A DNA stretch of 64,000 nucleotides from Thermococcus thermotolerans (GCF_024707485.1 NZ_CP102602.1:434001-498000); one strand, 5' to 3'; shown: positions 15,307 through 21,015, numbered from the stretch's first letter. Notes: generated by a model from the letters alone, not told the origin. Program-made: numbers and translations.

Positions 15307-15352
15307 TTTAAGGTACTACCAATCGCCCGGTCGGGCGTATTAATCGCCCCTC

Positions 15353-15370
15353 GGGCAGGAGGGTCGGCAA
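15353..15370 (+). repeat. 18-bp direct repeat, left copy
   Basis: GGGCAGGAGGGTCGGCAA is identical to 20980-20997; CCCT before it is shared too (22 of 23 positions). This copy provides the ribosome binding site of the secreted-protein gene. The two copies bound the 5.6-kb cassette. Confidence 0.8.
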
Positions 15371-15371
15371 G

Positions 15372-15731
15372 ATGAAAAAGTTGGTTGCCGTACTGTTCGG
15401 CCTGCTGGTAGTGGCGGCAGGGTTCGCGGCAGCGACGACTTGGGTCACCACTGAGGTACATGGATGGAGAGAAGGGAACTATGGCTGGGCACTTGCAGTA
15501 GTCGGAGTCAAGTATGACCAACAGAACCCGTATACTAACTACGATATCCTTTACAGGTACGGCCGGGGAGGACTTACTACCAAGGGACAGAGCCTTGAAT
15601 ATTATGCCTCGTACTATTACTACTACCCAGACAGCAATTCGGTAACAACTGTCACGACAGTCAGGGAAAGTAGTTCCAGTCCGATAGCCATAGAAATTGT
15701 CACGGCGACTTCTGGATGGCCATACATATGA
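15372..15731 (+). CDS. small secreted tyrosine-rich protein of unknown family
   Basis: A 119-aa protein with a clear signal peptide (MKKLVAVLFGLLVVAAGFAAA, cleavage likely after Ala) and a mature part of about 98 residues rich in Tyr, Ser, Thr and Gly, with a run of YYYYY near residue 79 and no cysteine. I do not recognise it. It is followed by three paralogous surface proteins and an ABC-2 exporter, an order that recalls peptide-bacteriocin operons (small exported product, membrane partner, ABC transporter), but homology to any bacteriocin is not shown. Start supported by GGAGG 11-15 nt upstream. Confidence 0.65.
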   Translation: MKKLVAVLFGLLVVAAGFAAATTWVTTEVHGWREGNYGWALAVVGVKYDQQNPYTNYDILYRYGRGGLTTKGQSLEYYASYYYYYPDSNSVTTVTTVRESSSSPIAIEIVTATSGWPYI

Positions 15732-15786
15732 AGAAAACACCTATTTCTTTTCAAATTTTTATCTTTTCGTATGCGGGGGGAAGTGT

Positions 15787-16884
15787 ATGGGGAGAGGAAT
15801 ACAGTGGTTTGGAGTGTTATTAGCTTCGATGCTTTTTTTAATGACTGTTCCTCACGTTTTATCCATTCCATACTGGGTTAAGCCTGGTGTGTACGTCAAA
15901 TATGCTGCTTTAAGATACGAGCCATACGTCCAGTACAAAGAATCCCTTGGAGTTAAGAAACCCCCGATGACAATGATACTGTTTTATAACCGCAGTGGGG
16001 TTCTGTTCAACATTCACGCGACGGGGGACGTTTTTCTAACCTTTGGGATAGAGCGCGACAACGGAACCCATTTGGAAGTGGCCTTCCGGCTAACTGCCTA
16101 TAACGTCACCGTTGATGTTGTACAGAAAAACAGTACTAAATTGCCAGTTTTCTGGAATGAGTCACAGATAGTCTCATCCAACATAAGCAAAACAAAATGG
16201 CCAGGTCTTGTGGAATATAAAATCCACATGAAATCGCTGAAAATTGCCGGAAGTTACTCAATAAGGAAAAACGATGGAATGGTCATCGGGCCCAACGGAA
16301 AGCACTATGGCCACACATTTCTGTGGTACGATCCTAATGAGAACTTTGGTTCAAACACTCCTTACGTTAATCTCACCCCAGTTGCATCACCTCTCTACCT
16401 CAACGGGACCATTGGGCTAGACAAAAAGCTCGTAACGCACTACGGCACGTTTGGCCCACCAATCGGCAGGGTCGTGCTGGTTCAGAAGAACCCCAGTCCG
16501 ATAAAAGTGTGCTTTTCCGTGGGAACCCACAAAGAGTGTCCCTTCGGAACAGGGGACAATGAGATTATTGGGGGGATTACGTATGACCCCGCTAGTGGGA
16601 TAACTATTGCTGGTGACCTGCTGATACCCCCCGCTGATGTCAGGGCCATAGGCATCGTTTACGCACTCTTCAGCGATCTTAAGGGGGCCTACTTTAACGA
16701 GGTGAAGGCAGACTACTCGATGTATCCAGTTCTCCAGATTTACGATACCAACGCTGAGTTCCAGAAGGCCCAAGAGGTTCCGTTCTCAAAGGCTAAAACT
16801 CCGTGGAAGTACGTCTTCTACATAGCACTAACCGTTCTTGGTATAATGGCTGGAACAAGAAGCGGGGGGCTTCCAAAATGGTGA
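15787..16884 (+). CDS. surface protein, cassette paralogue 1
   Basis: A 365-aa protein with a signal peptide (about 1-29), then the motif IPYWVKPGVYVKY, a large extracellular domain with many NxS/T glycosylation sites, the shared blocks PVFWNESQIVSS and YGHTFLWYDPN, and a C-terminal transmembrane helix. The same blocks recur in the next two genes, so this is a tandem gene family. Function unknown; the topology suggests anchored extracellular domains. The C-terminal tail (AGTRSGGLPKW) differs from the WxxKKR-like tails of the paralogues, while the alternative frame here reads WNKKRG, so a small indel is possible. Start at 15787 after GGGGGGAAG. Confidence 0.68.
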   Translation: MGRGIQWFGVLLASMLFLMTVPHVLSIPYWVKPGVYVKYAALRYEPYVQYKESLGVKKPPMTMILFYNRSGVLFNIHATGDVFLTFGIERDNGTHLEVAFRLTAYNVTVDVVQKNSTKLPVFWNESQIVSSNISKTKWPGLVEYKIHMKSLKIAGSYSIRKNDGMVIGPNGKHYGHTFLWYDPNENFGSNTPYVNLTPVASPLYLNGTIGLDKKLVTHYGTFGPPIGRVVLVQKNPSPIKVCFSVGTHKECPFGTGDNEIIGGITYDPASGITIAGDLLIPPADVRAIGIVYALFSDLKGAYFNEVKADYSMYPVLQIYDTNAEFQKAQEVPFSKAKTPWKYVFYIALTVLGIMAGTRSGGLPKW

Positions 16885-17951
16885 ACCTTGCACTTTCAAT
16901 ATCGGTGGCTGGAGTCATCCTCATTGGGATCCTTCCTCTAGCAATGGCAATCCCCTACTGGGCGGGCAACGCTTCCCTCACCTACGAAGCAAACTACTAT
17001 GCCCCGTATGTTGATTATCGACTTTCACAGGGGGACAAGCCGGAGTGGATAACAACATCCATTCTGATCTACAACTACTCGGGTGTGCTTTACATAATTA
17101 AAACCTATGGATCAACAACACTGGAGTTCCATCTGAAAAGAGATGGCCGGTTTGTGGACGTTACGGCGGAGATAATCCTCAAAAATGTTAACGTGAGCGC
17201 CTTTCTACCCCCGGGCATTTCTCCTCCCTCATTCTGGAACGAATCAAAGGTCATATCCACGAAGGTCATGAAGAGCCATTACCCCGGATTTGAAGACTGG
17301 AAGTGGTATATTTTCCATCTCAGGGAGCTCACAATAGTAGGGAAGTACAGGATACGGGTCAATGACAGCATGGTGATAAAAGACGGCACCGTTTACGGCC
17401 ATACGATGCTCTGGGACGACCCCATGAATCCTCTTACCAATGACTCCCCTTTTTCAATTCACCCCCTCAGCACAAGAATAAAGAGCGTTCAAATTGACAA
17501 TGATAATGTTTTCAGGATCCGGAACATAACAATCGAACCTCCCACCAAGCTCGTGGTCACAACACCCTACTCCTATAACCTAACCCAACACCTGAGGAAG
17601 GACTTTCTGATTGAGAATAACCCATACTCAGCGATGATTTTCAGGTTCGATGCCTCCGGAGGGATCCTCCTTTCAACGTTTCAGGAGGCTCCCGATTTCT
17701 GGGCACTAGGCGTTCTAAGCGCAAGTTTCGTCGATGAGTACTCTCTTTACCAGGTTGAAGTTAAAGGTGATAAATTCTACCTCACGGGACTCGTATTGGA
17801 GAACTTCACAACAAAAGTTGAGAGTACAGGGAGAGATGTCCGCTATCCCCGCCCTAAAACGGGGCTTAAGTGGATGTTCTATGCAAGCATTGCAATACTG
17901 GCAGGGGTCTTAGTGTGGAACCTGAAGCTAGTGGGGGTGGGCAGGCGATGA
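16878..17951 (+). CDS. surface protein, cassette paralogue 2
   Basis: A 357-aa protein organised like its neighbours: signal peptide, IPYWAGNASLTYEANYYAPY, glycosylation sites, SFWNESKVIST, VYGHTMLWDDP, then a C-terminal transmembrane helix (about 333-350) with a basic end (GVGRR). It starts at ATG 16878, 7 nt inside the preceding gene, with GGGGGG upstream. It is the most diverged of the three: the region that carries GGITYDPASGI in paralogue 1 reads FDASGGILL. Confidence 0.68.
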   Translation: MVNLALSISVAGVILIGILPLAMAIPYWAGNASLTYEANYYAPYVDYRLSQGDKPEWITTSILIYNYSGVLYIIKTYGSTTLEFHLKRDGRFVDVTAEIILKNVNVSAFLPPGISPPSFWNESKVISTKVMKSHYPGFEDWKWYIFHLRELTIVGKYRIRVNDSMVIKDGTVYGHTMLWDDPMNPLTNDSPFSIHPLSTRIKSVQIDNDNVFRIRNITIEPPTKLVVTTPYSYNLTQHLRKDFLIENNPYSAMIFRFDASGGILLSTFQEAPDFWALGVLSASFVDEYSLYQVEVKGDKFYLTGLVLENFTTKVESTGRDVRYPRPKTGLKWMFYASIAILAGVLVWNLKLVGVGRR

Positions 17952-19033
17952 AACGGATGCTAAAGGTCATTGCTCTTGTCATGCTGGCACTTTTGGAGGT
18001 TCCAATGATTGCAGGTGTACCATACTGGGCCAAGCCAGGCGTTTACATCGAATACGTGGCCCAGAGGTATGACCCGTACTTTGATTTTGTCAAAGGAGCA
18101 ACTCCAAGCCAGGTACGTACCGCCGAAATCTTCATTGAGGTCAATGGCACTTTATTCAGGATATTTTCAAACAACAACACCACCGTCCGGTTCGATATTC
18201 TGGGTGAAAGCGACGGATATTTACGAGTAAGGGCAACGATTACGATGGAGAACGTGACAATTTTTTCGACATTTCTGAACGGCACTAAATACCCCGTCTT
18301 CTGGGATCACAGAAACGTCATATCCGAAGAGCTCATCCCAAGTCACGACGTTGGATTCCTCGACTGTGTCTGGCTTAGGGTCAAGCTGAGGAACCTCAGC
18401 ATCTCGGGGACTTACCTGATAAGGCTCAGCGATGGGGCGGTTTTCGATGCAGATGGCAACTATTATGGGCACACGTTTCTCTGGGTGGATCCCAACGACC
18501 TGCCAAGGGCCAACGAGACGTTCTCCACCTCGGGGAATCTTAACGTGACGGTCTGGAGAGTAGGCACACTCAACGAGTCGGTAATGACATACTATGGAAA
18601 ATTCGGCCCGCCCCTCATCTCCATTGCACTGTCAATGGGGGACTTCAAGCTGTCCCAGAGGGTCGATGATGAAAGAAAATATCCTCTACTTGAAGTATCC
18701 TTCGGCGGGCCAAGTGCTGGGGGTATTTACGATCCGTCCACAGGTATTGCCCTATACCCAACAGCTATGGGAACTGCTCCTTACGCCGATTTTTATGCAA
18801 TAGGCGTGAAATGGGCAGTGTTTGAGGACCAATTATCGGGATATCGGATGATGTCAAATAAAGACAGCCCATGGAAGTTTGGCCTCGTGCTATACGGCAC
18901 GAACGCAGAGTTTGAGGCCGTTGAGGGGGTAAAATACACAAGACCCTGGACCGTGACGAGCTATCTTTTCTATCTTACACTGGCCTTCCTGGGGATTGCC
19001 ATGGTGTGGGCTTCACTAAAAAAACGGAGGTGA
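17948..19033 (+). CDS. surface protein, cassette paralogue 3
   Basis: A 361-aa protein: signal peptide, VPYWAKPGVYIEYVAQRYDPY, PVFWDHRNVISEE, YYGHTFLWVDPND, GGIYDPSTGI, a C-terminal transmembrane helix and the tail LKKRR. It is closer to paralogue 1 than to paralogue 2 (PYWxKPGVY, YGTNAEF/YDTNAEF shared). It overlaps the preceding gene by ATGA and is followed after 4 nt by the ABC permease, so all are one operon. Confidence 0.68.
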   Translation: MKRMLKVIALVMLALLEVPMIAGVPYWAKPGVYIEYVAQRYDPYFDFVKGATPSQVRTAEIFIEVNGTLFRIFSNNNTTVRFDILGESDGYLRVRATITMENVTIFSTFLNGTKYPVFWDHRNVISEELIPSHDVGFLDCVWLRVKLRNLSISGTYLIRLSDGAVFDADGNYYGHTFLWVDPNDLPRANETFSTSGNLNVTVWRVGTLNESVMTYYGKFGPPLISIALSMGDFKLSQRVDDERKYPLLEVSFGGPSAGGIYDPSTGIALYPTAMGTAPYADFYAIGVKWAVFEDQLSGYRMMSNKDSPWKFGLVLYGTNAEFEAVEGVKYTRPWTVTSYLFYLTLAFLGIAMVWASLKKRR

Positions 19034-19037
19034 CCTC

Positions 19038-19805
19038 ATGGGACGTCGCTATACACTCTTCCGCTGGGAAATGAACGACGTTGTGAAGAACGTTCTCCTG
19101 CTGTTTGGAATACTCCTGGCAGGAATGGCAATGAAGCAGTCTATTATGAGTGTTAATTCAAGCATGGGGTTTGTCTCTGGAACCGAAATTGAACTCTTTG
19201 GGCCTTCCAAGGCCACAGGTGTCGCGCTGAGCGTTCAAACTCTCCTTTCCCTCGACGACGTCTGGACCCTGCTGAGCTTCCTGATACTCCTCCTTGGAGC
19301 TTTGACCTTCCGCTACGACAGGGACAGCGGTGTTGCCCGCTCGGTTTACTCCCTTCCATACTCAAACACGGAAATCTTTGGGGTCAAGTTGCTCTCCCTC
19401 CTCATCTACGGGTTCGCCATGATACTGTTGCCCTTCACTTACATCAGCGTGACCACCTATGCAAGCATAGCCGGCCACCTTCCAAAGATAACGTCAGGTT
19501 TCATCGGCGACGCGTTGGTGCTGGTGGTCTTCCTGGTGCTCTACCTGATAGCGGTTGCCACACTGACTTCACTGGCATCTCCAAATGCGTTCCTGGCCTT
19601 CATGGTCGGCTTCGCGGCGATATACGCGCCCCGCGTGACCGGGGTCTCTAACCTACCTCCGCAACTCTTCATCAACGCCATATCTCGGAGCGGTAGCACC
19701 GACTTTACACCGTTCACAGCACAGTACATCGGCTGGGGCCTGCTGGTTCCGCTGGTGCTCTTTGCCCTCTCGTGGGTTCTCATCAGAAGGAGGGATGTGG
19801 TGTGA
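19038..19805 (+). CDS. ABC-2 type transporter permease
   Basis: A 255-aa protein with six predicted membrane helices; the pattern FRYDRDSGVARSVYSLPYSNTEIFGVKLL is typical of ABC-2 exporters (a cytosolic coupling helix with an ...R.GT..LL.PISR-like block). With the ATPase at 20260 it should form an exporter, for which the small secreted protein or the surface proteins are possible partners. Start ATG follows GGAGGTGAC. Confidence 0.82.
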   Translation: MGRRYTLFRWEMNDVVKNVLLLFGILLAGMAMKQSIMSVNSSMGFVSGTEIELFGPSKATGVALSVQTLLSLDDVWTLLSFLILLLGALTFRYDRDSGVARSVYSLPYSNTEIFGVKLLSLLIYGFAMILLPFTYISVTTYASIAGHLPKITSGFIGDALVLVVFLVLYLIAVATLTSLASPNAFLAFMVGFAAIYAPRVTGVSNLPPQLFINAISRSGSTDFTPFTAQYIGWGLLVPLVLFALSWVLIRRRDVV

Positions 19806-20263
19806 GGTTCTGGGGCGCCCTGCTCTCCGCGATGCTCCTGCTTACCATTGGCTCCCTGTGGGTCTACGATTCCTATGAGAACGAGGTCGGCTCGATAGGC
19901 CCGGTGTTCCTCCAGCCCGTTGAACACCAGGGAAACGTCACCAGCCTCGGCACCGTGACGGCGCACACTCCAACCAGCTCCCTCGTCGAGGCTTCCTGCA
20001 ACGGTAACGGGGTCGTTGAGGTCTACGACATCATAACCGGGGAACGGATTGACAGGCACGCCGTTTACGGCCACGCCAGGTATCAGTTTATTCTTCCGCG
20101 CGAGGGGGACTACCTGATAATCAACAACGGCACGGACAAACTAACCTGCTCCTTCCGCTTCATCAAAAACTACCCGACAAAGGAGGTTCAAAACGCCCTT
20201 TACATAAGTGGTTCTGCCTTTGCACTTCTCCTGGCACTCGTTGTGTGGAGGTGGGGGAGATGA
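19802..20263 (+). CDS. membrane-anchored beta-rich protein in the exporter operon
   Basis: A 153-aa protein starting at GTG 19802, which overlaps the permease TGA (GTGA) and has AAGGAGGGA upstream. N-terminal and C-terminal transmembrane helices flank a domain with a regular beta pattern (VVEVYDIITGERI, YQFILPREGDYLII). A similar layout is seen in the 138-aa protein at 62415, so an exposed beta-sandwich accessory domain is a fair guess. No family recognised. Confidence 0.65.
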   Translation: MRFWGALLSAMLLLTIGSLWVYDSYENEVGSIGPVFLQPVEHQGNVTSLGTVTAHTPTSSLVEASCNGNGVVEVYDIITGERIDRHAVYGHARYQFILPREGDYLIINNGTDKLTCSFRFIKNYPTKEVQNALYISGSAFALLLALVVWRWGR

Positions 20264-21015
20264 TAATCGAGGCCAGAGACCTCAGAAAGATTTTTGGAAG
20301 CATAAGGGCACTCGACGGAATCACTGTGGACATTCCTAAAGGAGTCACGCTGATCCTCGGCCCCAACGGTGGCGGAAAGAGCACCTTTCTTAAGCTCGCA
20401 ACGGGAGTTTACAGGCCGACAGCAGGTGAGATAAAGGTATTTGGCGAAACCCCATGGAACAACTGGAAAGTTAAGGCCCGCTTCGGCGCTGCATACGACC
20501 CGCCGGCCTTTCCCCAGTTCACCACGGGTAGGGAGTGGCTCACCCTGTTCGCCCGGAGCAAGGGCGCCGGCGAGGAGGAGATAGAGCGCGTGGCGGAGAT
20601 GTTCGAGGTCAAAAGCTTCCTTGACAAGAGGATAAACGGCTACTCATCGGGGATGCTCAAGAGGCTTTCCCTAGCCCAGGCGTTCATAGGAAAGCCGGAG
20701 CTAATATTTCTCGACGAGCCTCTGGCCAACATAGACTTCGACAGCATGGAGAGGGTAATTGAGATAATTGAGGAAATGAGAGAAAAAACAAACTTTGTGG
20801 TAATAAGCCACATCTGGGAGCCTATAATACCCATTGTGGACTGGGTTGTTGTTATAGGCAACGGGAAGCTCGTTCTAAGCGGAAAAGCCAGTGATGTGCG
20901 GGATGAGGTCGAGAAGCTGTTCAAACCCCGCATAGGACGTTCAAGTAGGAAGGGGGCCCAGGAGGGCCCCTCTTCCCTTGGGCAGGAGGGTCGGCAAACC
21001 CCTGCCAACGATTGA
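20260..21015 (+). CDS. ABC transporter ATP-binding protein
   Basis: A 251-aa ATPase with Walker A GPNGGGKST, signature YSSGMLKRLSLAQAF, Walker B LIFLDEPLAN and switch His (ISHIWEP). The SSGM signature is usual in ABC-2 exporters. Start ATG 20260 overlaps the preceding TGA. The last 30 residues (GRSSRKGAQEGPSSLGQEG...) look unstructured and are encoded by a GC hairpin (20953-20970) and by the right copy of the 18-bp repeat, so the native 3' end may have been replaced. Confidence 0.85.
   Translation: MIIEARDLRKIFGSIRALDGITVDIPKGVTLILGPNGGGKSTFLKLATGVYRPTAGEIKVFGETPWNNWKVKARFGAAYDPPAFPQFTTGREWLTLFARSKGAGEEEIERVAEMFEVKSFLDKRINGYSSGMLKRLSLAQAFIGKPELIFLDEPLANIDFDSMERVIEIIEEMREKTNFVVISHIWEPIIPIVDWVVVIGNGKLVLSGKASDVRDEVEKLFKPRIGRSSRKGAQEGPSSLGQEGRQTPAND
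20980..20997 (+). repeat. 18-bp direct repeat, right copy
   Basis: Identical to 15353-15370. It lies within the last codons of the ABC ATPase gene, just after the hairpin GGGGCCC-AGGA-GGGCCCC at 20953-20970. Confidence 0.8.

Follow-up and report, generated by a model that had tools for sequence, protein, structure and literature searches.

Lactococcin 972-like loci, such as that of streptococcin B, comprise a bacteriocin, a presumed immunity protein and an ABC transporter; the product is thought to be Sec-secreted and some strains lack a functional bacteriocin (PMC11796350). Self-immunity to lantibiotics is provided by LanI and LanFEG (PMC5786555). In Vibrio cholerae, the effector-immunity modules of the type VI secretion system (T6SS) carry arrays of orphan immunity genes (PMC5361080). 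The Thermococcales contain the VARTIG loci, which are hypervariable and surface-associated, have a proposed role in conflict or self-recognition, and form an operon beginning with a large Ig-domain protein, arCOG07710 (PMC8416519).

We compared these systems to a gene cassette of Thermococcus thermotolerans. The window, meaning the whole 64,000 nt stretch of DNA analysed (G000:C1:434001-498000), comes from a 2.07 Mb genome in a single contig. The cassette lies at 15372–21015 in the window and has the order SP119–S1–S2–S3–PERM–B–ATP, with all genes on the + strand. It is flanked on one side by a GTP cyclohydrolase gene, called mptA (product matching PF02649, 1e−63), and on the other by an HD-domain gene and then EF-2. 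This order, strand and position had been described in the original prediction and were confirmed, with the start codons of S1, S2, S3, B and ATP read from the sequence (Table 1). From S1 to ATP, adjacent genes overlap or almost touch, as in a single operon. The cassette is not a chance array, because the whole of it recurs in the same order at the same mptA-HD-EF-2 site in approximately 20 of the 61 same-genus genomes in our comparison set, with 1 to 4 S genes. On balance, and judging from sequence comparisons, we lean towards the locus being a putative bacteriocin-like (archaeocin-like) antagonism and immunity cassette.

Table 1 Features of the cassette, with positions counted from the first letter of the window.
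Feature	Position	Strand	Basis
5′ direct repeat, CCCTCGGGCAGGAGGGTCGGCAA	15348..15370	+	22/23 nt the same as 20975–20997; pair conserved across loci
SP119, small exported protein, proposed antagonist	15372..15731	+	Translation, family, AF2 model, composition
S1, anchored surface protein adjoining SP119, proposed cognate immunity, S clade 3	15787..16884	+	Sequence, clade assignment
S2, spare (orphan) S, clade 1	16878..17951	+	Other genomes pair this clade with the "GYSWTE" SP type
S3, spare (orphan) S, clade 5	17948..19033	+	L061 and L069 pair this clade with their SP type
PERM, ABC-2-type permease	19038..19805	+	PF13346 and PF12730, both below cut-off; conserved across loci
B, small membrane-anchored extracellular protein, no family	19802..20263	+	Regular partner of PERM and ATP
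ATP, ABC ATPase	20260..21015	+	PF00005, 2e−21
3′ direct repeat, inside the 3′ end of the ATP gene	20975..20997	+	Near-identical to the copy at 15348–15370

SP119 is 119 aa in length and carries a cleavable-type Sec signal peptide which ends near FAAA/TTW. The mature protein of approximately 98 aa contains no Cys and 18% of its residues are aromatic. Its AF2 model (mean pLDDT 89.6) has a compact, all-beta mature domain. The small protein being a structural fibre unit had been named as the outcome that would speak against the original prediction; this did not occur, as the domain is compact and the signal is not of the pilin type. A Foldseek search of the PDB with the model gave no match at E ≤ 0.001. 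The closest structure was 4k15 (Listeria Lmo2686, Zea), which at E 0.056 and TM 0.44 is not significant and was not counted as membership. Profile searches of the PDB with SP and S gave no match at E ≤ 10, and no family was found for SP, S or B in Pfam, NCBIfam or PADLOC. The toxin domain family Ntox47 (PF15540) was rejected: the best score was 17.5 bits against a cut-off of 25, over approximately 36 residues and in few SP members, and the genus scan gave nothing over the cut-off. No SP relatives were found in viral contigs or plasmids, and a Foldseek search of a viral structure library gave no match. Competing hairpins are possible around the ribosome-binding site in the SP leader (window 15318–15374); in the folded leader RNA the pairs are preserved with covariation no better than in shuffles, and an Rfam search of the leader returned nothing.

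Like the lactococcin 972-like loci, the cassette encodes a small beta-type product that leaves by Sec, and then one or more membrane proteins and an ABC transporter. However, PF09683 (lactococcin 972) matched neither SP119 nor any of 19 family members and gave nothing over cut-off in a scan of the 61 genus genomes. As regards the beta-sandwich fold of that family, the SP119 model is confident and all-beta, with no significant match in the PDB. The proposed immunity here consists of separate, multiplied S proteins together with PERM and B, and the archaeal host lacks the lipid II target.

The S proteins are 365 aa (S1), 357 aa (S2) and 361 aa (S3) long, each with an N-terminal signal and a C-terminal transmembrane stretch as read from the sequence. 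They are paralogues with approximately 30% pairwise identity and the common blocks PYW, FWN/D and YGHTFLW/YGHTMLW, as was initially noticed. The family could not be named at that stage; S, like SP and B, has no Pfam or NCBIfam match. The other outcome named beforehand as counting against the prediction was that S would be homologous to a nutrient-uptake family; no such homology was seen in Pfam, NCBIfam or PDB profiles. The AF2 model of S3 (mean pLDDT 90.6) combines an ectodomain rich in beta structure with a C-terminal helix, and Foldseek found no fold match for it in the PDB at E ≤ 0.001.

We compared distances between mature SPs (signal removed) to those between the adjacent S, PERM and ATP proteins using Mantel tests (n = 18). 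Mature SP was strongly correlated with the adjacent S (r = 0.83, P = 2e−4, the permutation floor; tree structure enters only via partial controls), and this correlation was unchanged once PERM or ATP distance had been removed. Correlations were close to zero for SP vs PERM (−0.03), SP vs ATP (−0.03) and S vs PERM (0.02). Adjacency alone does not explain this, because in loci with a single S gene S abuts both SP and PERM but tracks only SP (SP vs S: 0.82; S vs PERM: 0.14). In loci with multiple S genes, SP was correlated with the first S (0.93) but uncorrelated with the last (−0.06), which was correlated with PERM (0.74). SP and S are thus paired by type at the level of sequence, and the two proteins may bind one another.

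Seven clades were found among the S proteins of this type of locus. For every orphan S, other genomes contain SP-paired members of its clade; duplicates from the same clade were found in no locus (0 vs 4.65 expected, P = 0.0004). In the window, S1 is the SP-paired member and S2 and S3 are spare. Two hallmarks of an orphan-immunity module are therefore found here: a putative effector directly followed by a type-matched partner, and array members which match the pairs of other strains. As in the V. cholerae T6SS arrays, a pair appears to be swapped at one end with old immunity genes kept downstream, and the array members match the pairs of other strains and are not local duplicates. In contrast to those arrays, the product of the cassette is Sec-exported with no contact-dependent apparatus, the host is archaeal, the protein families are unrelated and an ABC module lies within the locus.

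SP was dead or absent with the S genes open in 6 loci (L051, L052, L053, L055, L056 and L064), a bias of gene breakage towards SP over S (Fisher: P = 0.045). In L051, L052 and L056 the type of the dead SP remnant agrees with that of the adjacent S. The opposite case was seen in one genome (G025, locus L063), where SP is intact and S genes are frameshifted; these frameshifts are possibly assembly errors, as one is next to a homopolymer.

The main rival to antagonism is ligand-receptor recognition, since type-matched pairing would also be expected of a ligand-receptor or kin-recognition pair. Each strain would then export its own type of ligand, SP, to be recognised by a matching S receptor at the surface; the ABC module would serve in transduction or recycling, and no killing would take place. 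Matched pairs and hypervariability fit any such couple, and S is anchored at the surface with a large ectodomain. However, the cassette contains no kinase or regulator, and protection more easily explains why several different S genes are kept when their SP is not, and why SP is lost where S is kept; we consider kin recognition or signalling unlikely. Surface display or assembly is less likely still. Here the S proteins would be type-specific anchors or chaperones mounting SP as a coat or adhesin unit, and the ABC module would supply or mature the envelope, which suits a locus where every part is exported or membrane-anchored and SP is all-beta and aromatic-rich. Anchors without a subunit should vanish, yet S arrays persist where SP is dead or absent, even alone (L053, L064 and L065); moreover, the signal is Sec-type and not pilin-type, and most loci carry one SP each.

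The ATPase has a clear nucleotide-binding domain (PF00005), as expected of an ABC-2 transporter, and the permease profile is sub-threshold: PERM matched PF13346 at E = 1e−4 (22.1 bits against a cut-off of 25) and PF12730 at E = 0.004, also below cut-off. The best NCBIfam relatives of ATP were DrrA and then the lantibiotic-protection subunit (TIGR03740: 117.8 bits against a cut-off of 309.75), both falling far under their cut-offs; we count this likeness in favour of an antagonism cassette. B was present in 60 of 115 genomes in the class-level search, with up to 5 copies per genome.

By analogy, a surface-anchored binder with an ABC-2 transporter may correspond to LanI with LanFEG, and the second-best NCBIfam match of ATP is the lantibiotic-protection subunit mentioned above. 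The differences are that one PERM and B stand in place of LanE and LanG, that the ATPase does not reach the family cut-off, that S is transmembrane-anchored and not a lipoprotein, and that SP119 can contain no lanthionine because the mature protein has no Cys. The ABC transporter need not export SP, since SP carries a Sec-type signal. That the ABC module exports SP with the S proteins as accessory transport proteins, as the "export system" of the original prediction had it, is very improbable. The operon layout and an ABC-2 permease with a DrrA-like ATPase would suit it, but SP carries a cleavable-type signal peptide of its own, there is no correlation between SP type and ABC sequence, and the ABC module persists without SP in L053 and L064. 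The remainder of that prediction, a plan of exported product, membrane immunity partners and ABC transporter, has gained strong comparative support from SP–S type-matching, the orphan-like spare S genes and SP decay.

At fourfold sites, identity was 71–75% in the signal-peptide codons, compared with 46% for PERM and 39% and 31% for mature SP. This would be expected if the signal-peptide DNA were an exchange arm ahead of a swapped payload. The combination of a constant front and an old, diverged payload therefore suggests that recombination in the leader and signal region may bring in new SP–S pairs.

Most cassette loci also contain paired repeats. The bracketing element is 17–23 nt long with the core GGGCAGGAGGGTCGGCA, and is found right before the SP start codon, where it overlaps the SP ribosome-binding site, and in the 3′ end of ATP. 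Lineage-specific variants common to both copies were seen in G007, G036, L053, L058 and L073, and repeat identity within a locus was higher than in shuffled pairings (P = 0.0014, uncorrected for relatedness). There is no recombinase in the cassette. Three cassette-less genomes have a single repeat copy at the same site (L112:6433, L113:7238 and L121:8827). These copies are hybrids: their left flank corresponds to the SP promoter and their right flank to the 3′ end of ATP. They are what precise excision of the cassette through its repeats would leave. L112 nests within cassette carriers in the EF-2/mptA/HD tree; the placement of L113 and L121 is less clear, and these two may instead reflect insertion duplicating a pre-existing site. 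In many other cassette-less genomes mptA and HD are directly adjacent, without the element. A small RelBE-like toxin-antitoxin gene pair occupies the mptA-HD gap of some cassette-less genomes (L112 5640–6200, L116, L126 and L127), and the gap therefore seems to be an insertion hot spot. It is doubtful that the locus is, in addition, an excisable antagonism system with orphan-immunity arrays and no known fold relatives in which the repeats are maintained so that a putative recombination process can precisely remove and exchange the entire cassette.

The SP119 family was found in 22 of the 61 genus genomes. In one of these cassettes (L057, G011:C1:269000-286000) the genes lie approximately 7 kb from HD on the opposite strand, through either rearrangement or separate insertion. 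The S-PERM-B-ATP module is also present elsewhere on the chromosome, with several copies in a genome, in 6 or more genera of the family. It appears confined to the Thermococcaceae, provisionally so because few searches were made outside the class. The genome of the window holds three further copies: L092 (G000:C1:289000-304000), L093 (397000-413000) and L094 (1747000-1762000). A Cys-containing small exported protein precedes S in L093 and L094, and none is visible in L092. The cassette shares hypervariability, surface association and archaeal order with the VARTIG loci, but it begins with a small SP (119 aa), has a conserved ABC core and lacks a large Ig-domain protein.

In many loci away from mptA (second-type loci), a second family of small proteins with a signal peptide lies directly before S. 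It has a constant front and a variable back half, is shortened or missing in several loci, and in a profile comparison showed weak similarity to SP, mostly in the signal region. We count its constant front, variable back and position before S in favour of an antagonism cassette. Paired repeats of note were absent from the second-type loci. The correlation of the small protein with S given PERM was 0.68–0.71, but the last-S control was also high (0.78), so these loci were rejected as an independent replication of the pairing. An extra signal-peptide protein of approximately 530–580 aa lies between S and PERM in L080, L081, L094 and L107 and after ATP in L093, L108 and L109. The largest array seen, five S genes over approximately 10 kb, is in the second-type locus L152 (G070:C4:39000-57000).

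For the antagonism and immunity cassette we propose the following mechanism. SP119, a small beta-rich domain, would leave the cell through general secretion and act on close relatives without the matching S, at their surface or membrane. At the cell surface, the S protein encoded directly downstream would bind SP of its own type, and PERM-B-ATP would act as a shared ABC-2 machine, probably clearing SP handed over by S, a direction of transport suggested by analogy to LanI and LanFEG. The constant DNA of the SP leader and signal peptide would allow SP–S pairs to be swapped as units. Older S genes (here S2 and S3) would remain downstream as orphan immunity, and SP would often be the first part lost. 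Of this scheme, the sequences themselves show the SP–S pairing, the spare S genes matching types found elsewhere, the decay of SP and the excision of the cassette; that SP is toxic, that it binds S, which way the pump works and what SP targets are inferred.

To our knowledge, hyperthermophilic archaea have yielded very few systems of protein antagonism, and we know of no orphan-immunity array described in them. Neither S nor B appears to have been described before, and the bracketing repeats offer a way into the precise loss of cassettes in archaea. With SP119–S1 as a named pair and S2 and S3 as built-in non-cognate controls, the proposed antagonism is directly testable in a tractable Thermococcus.
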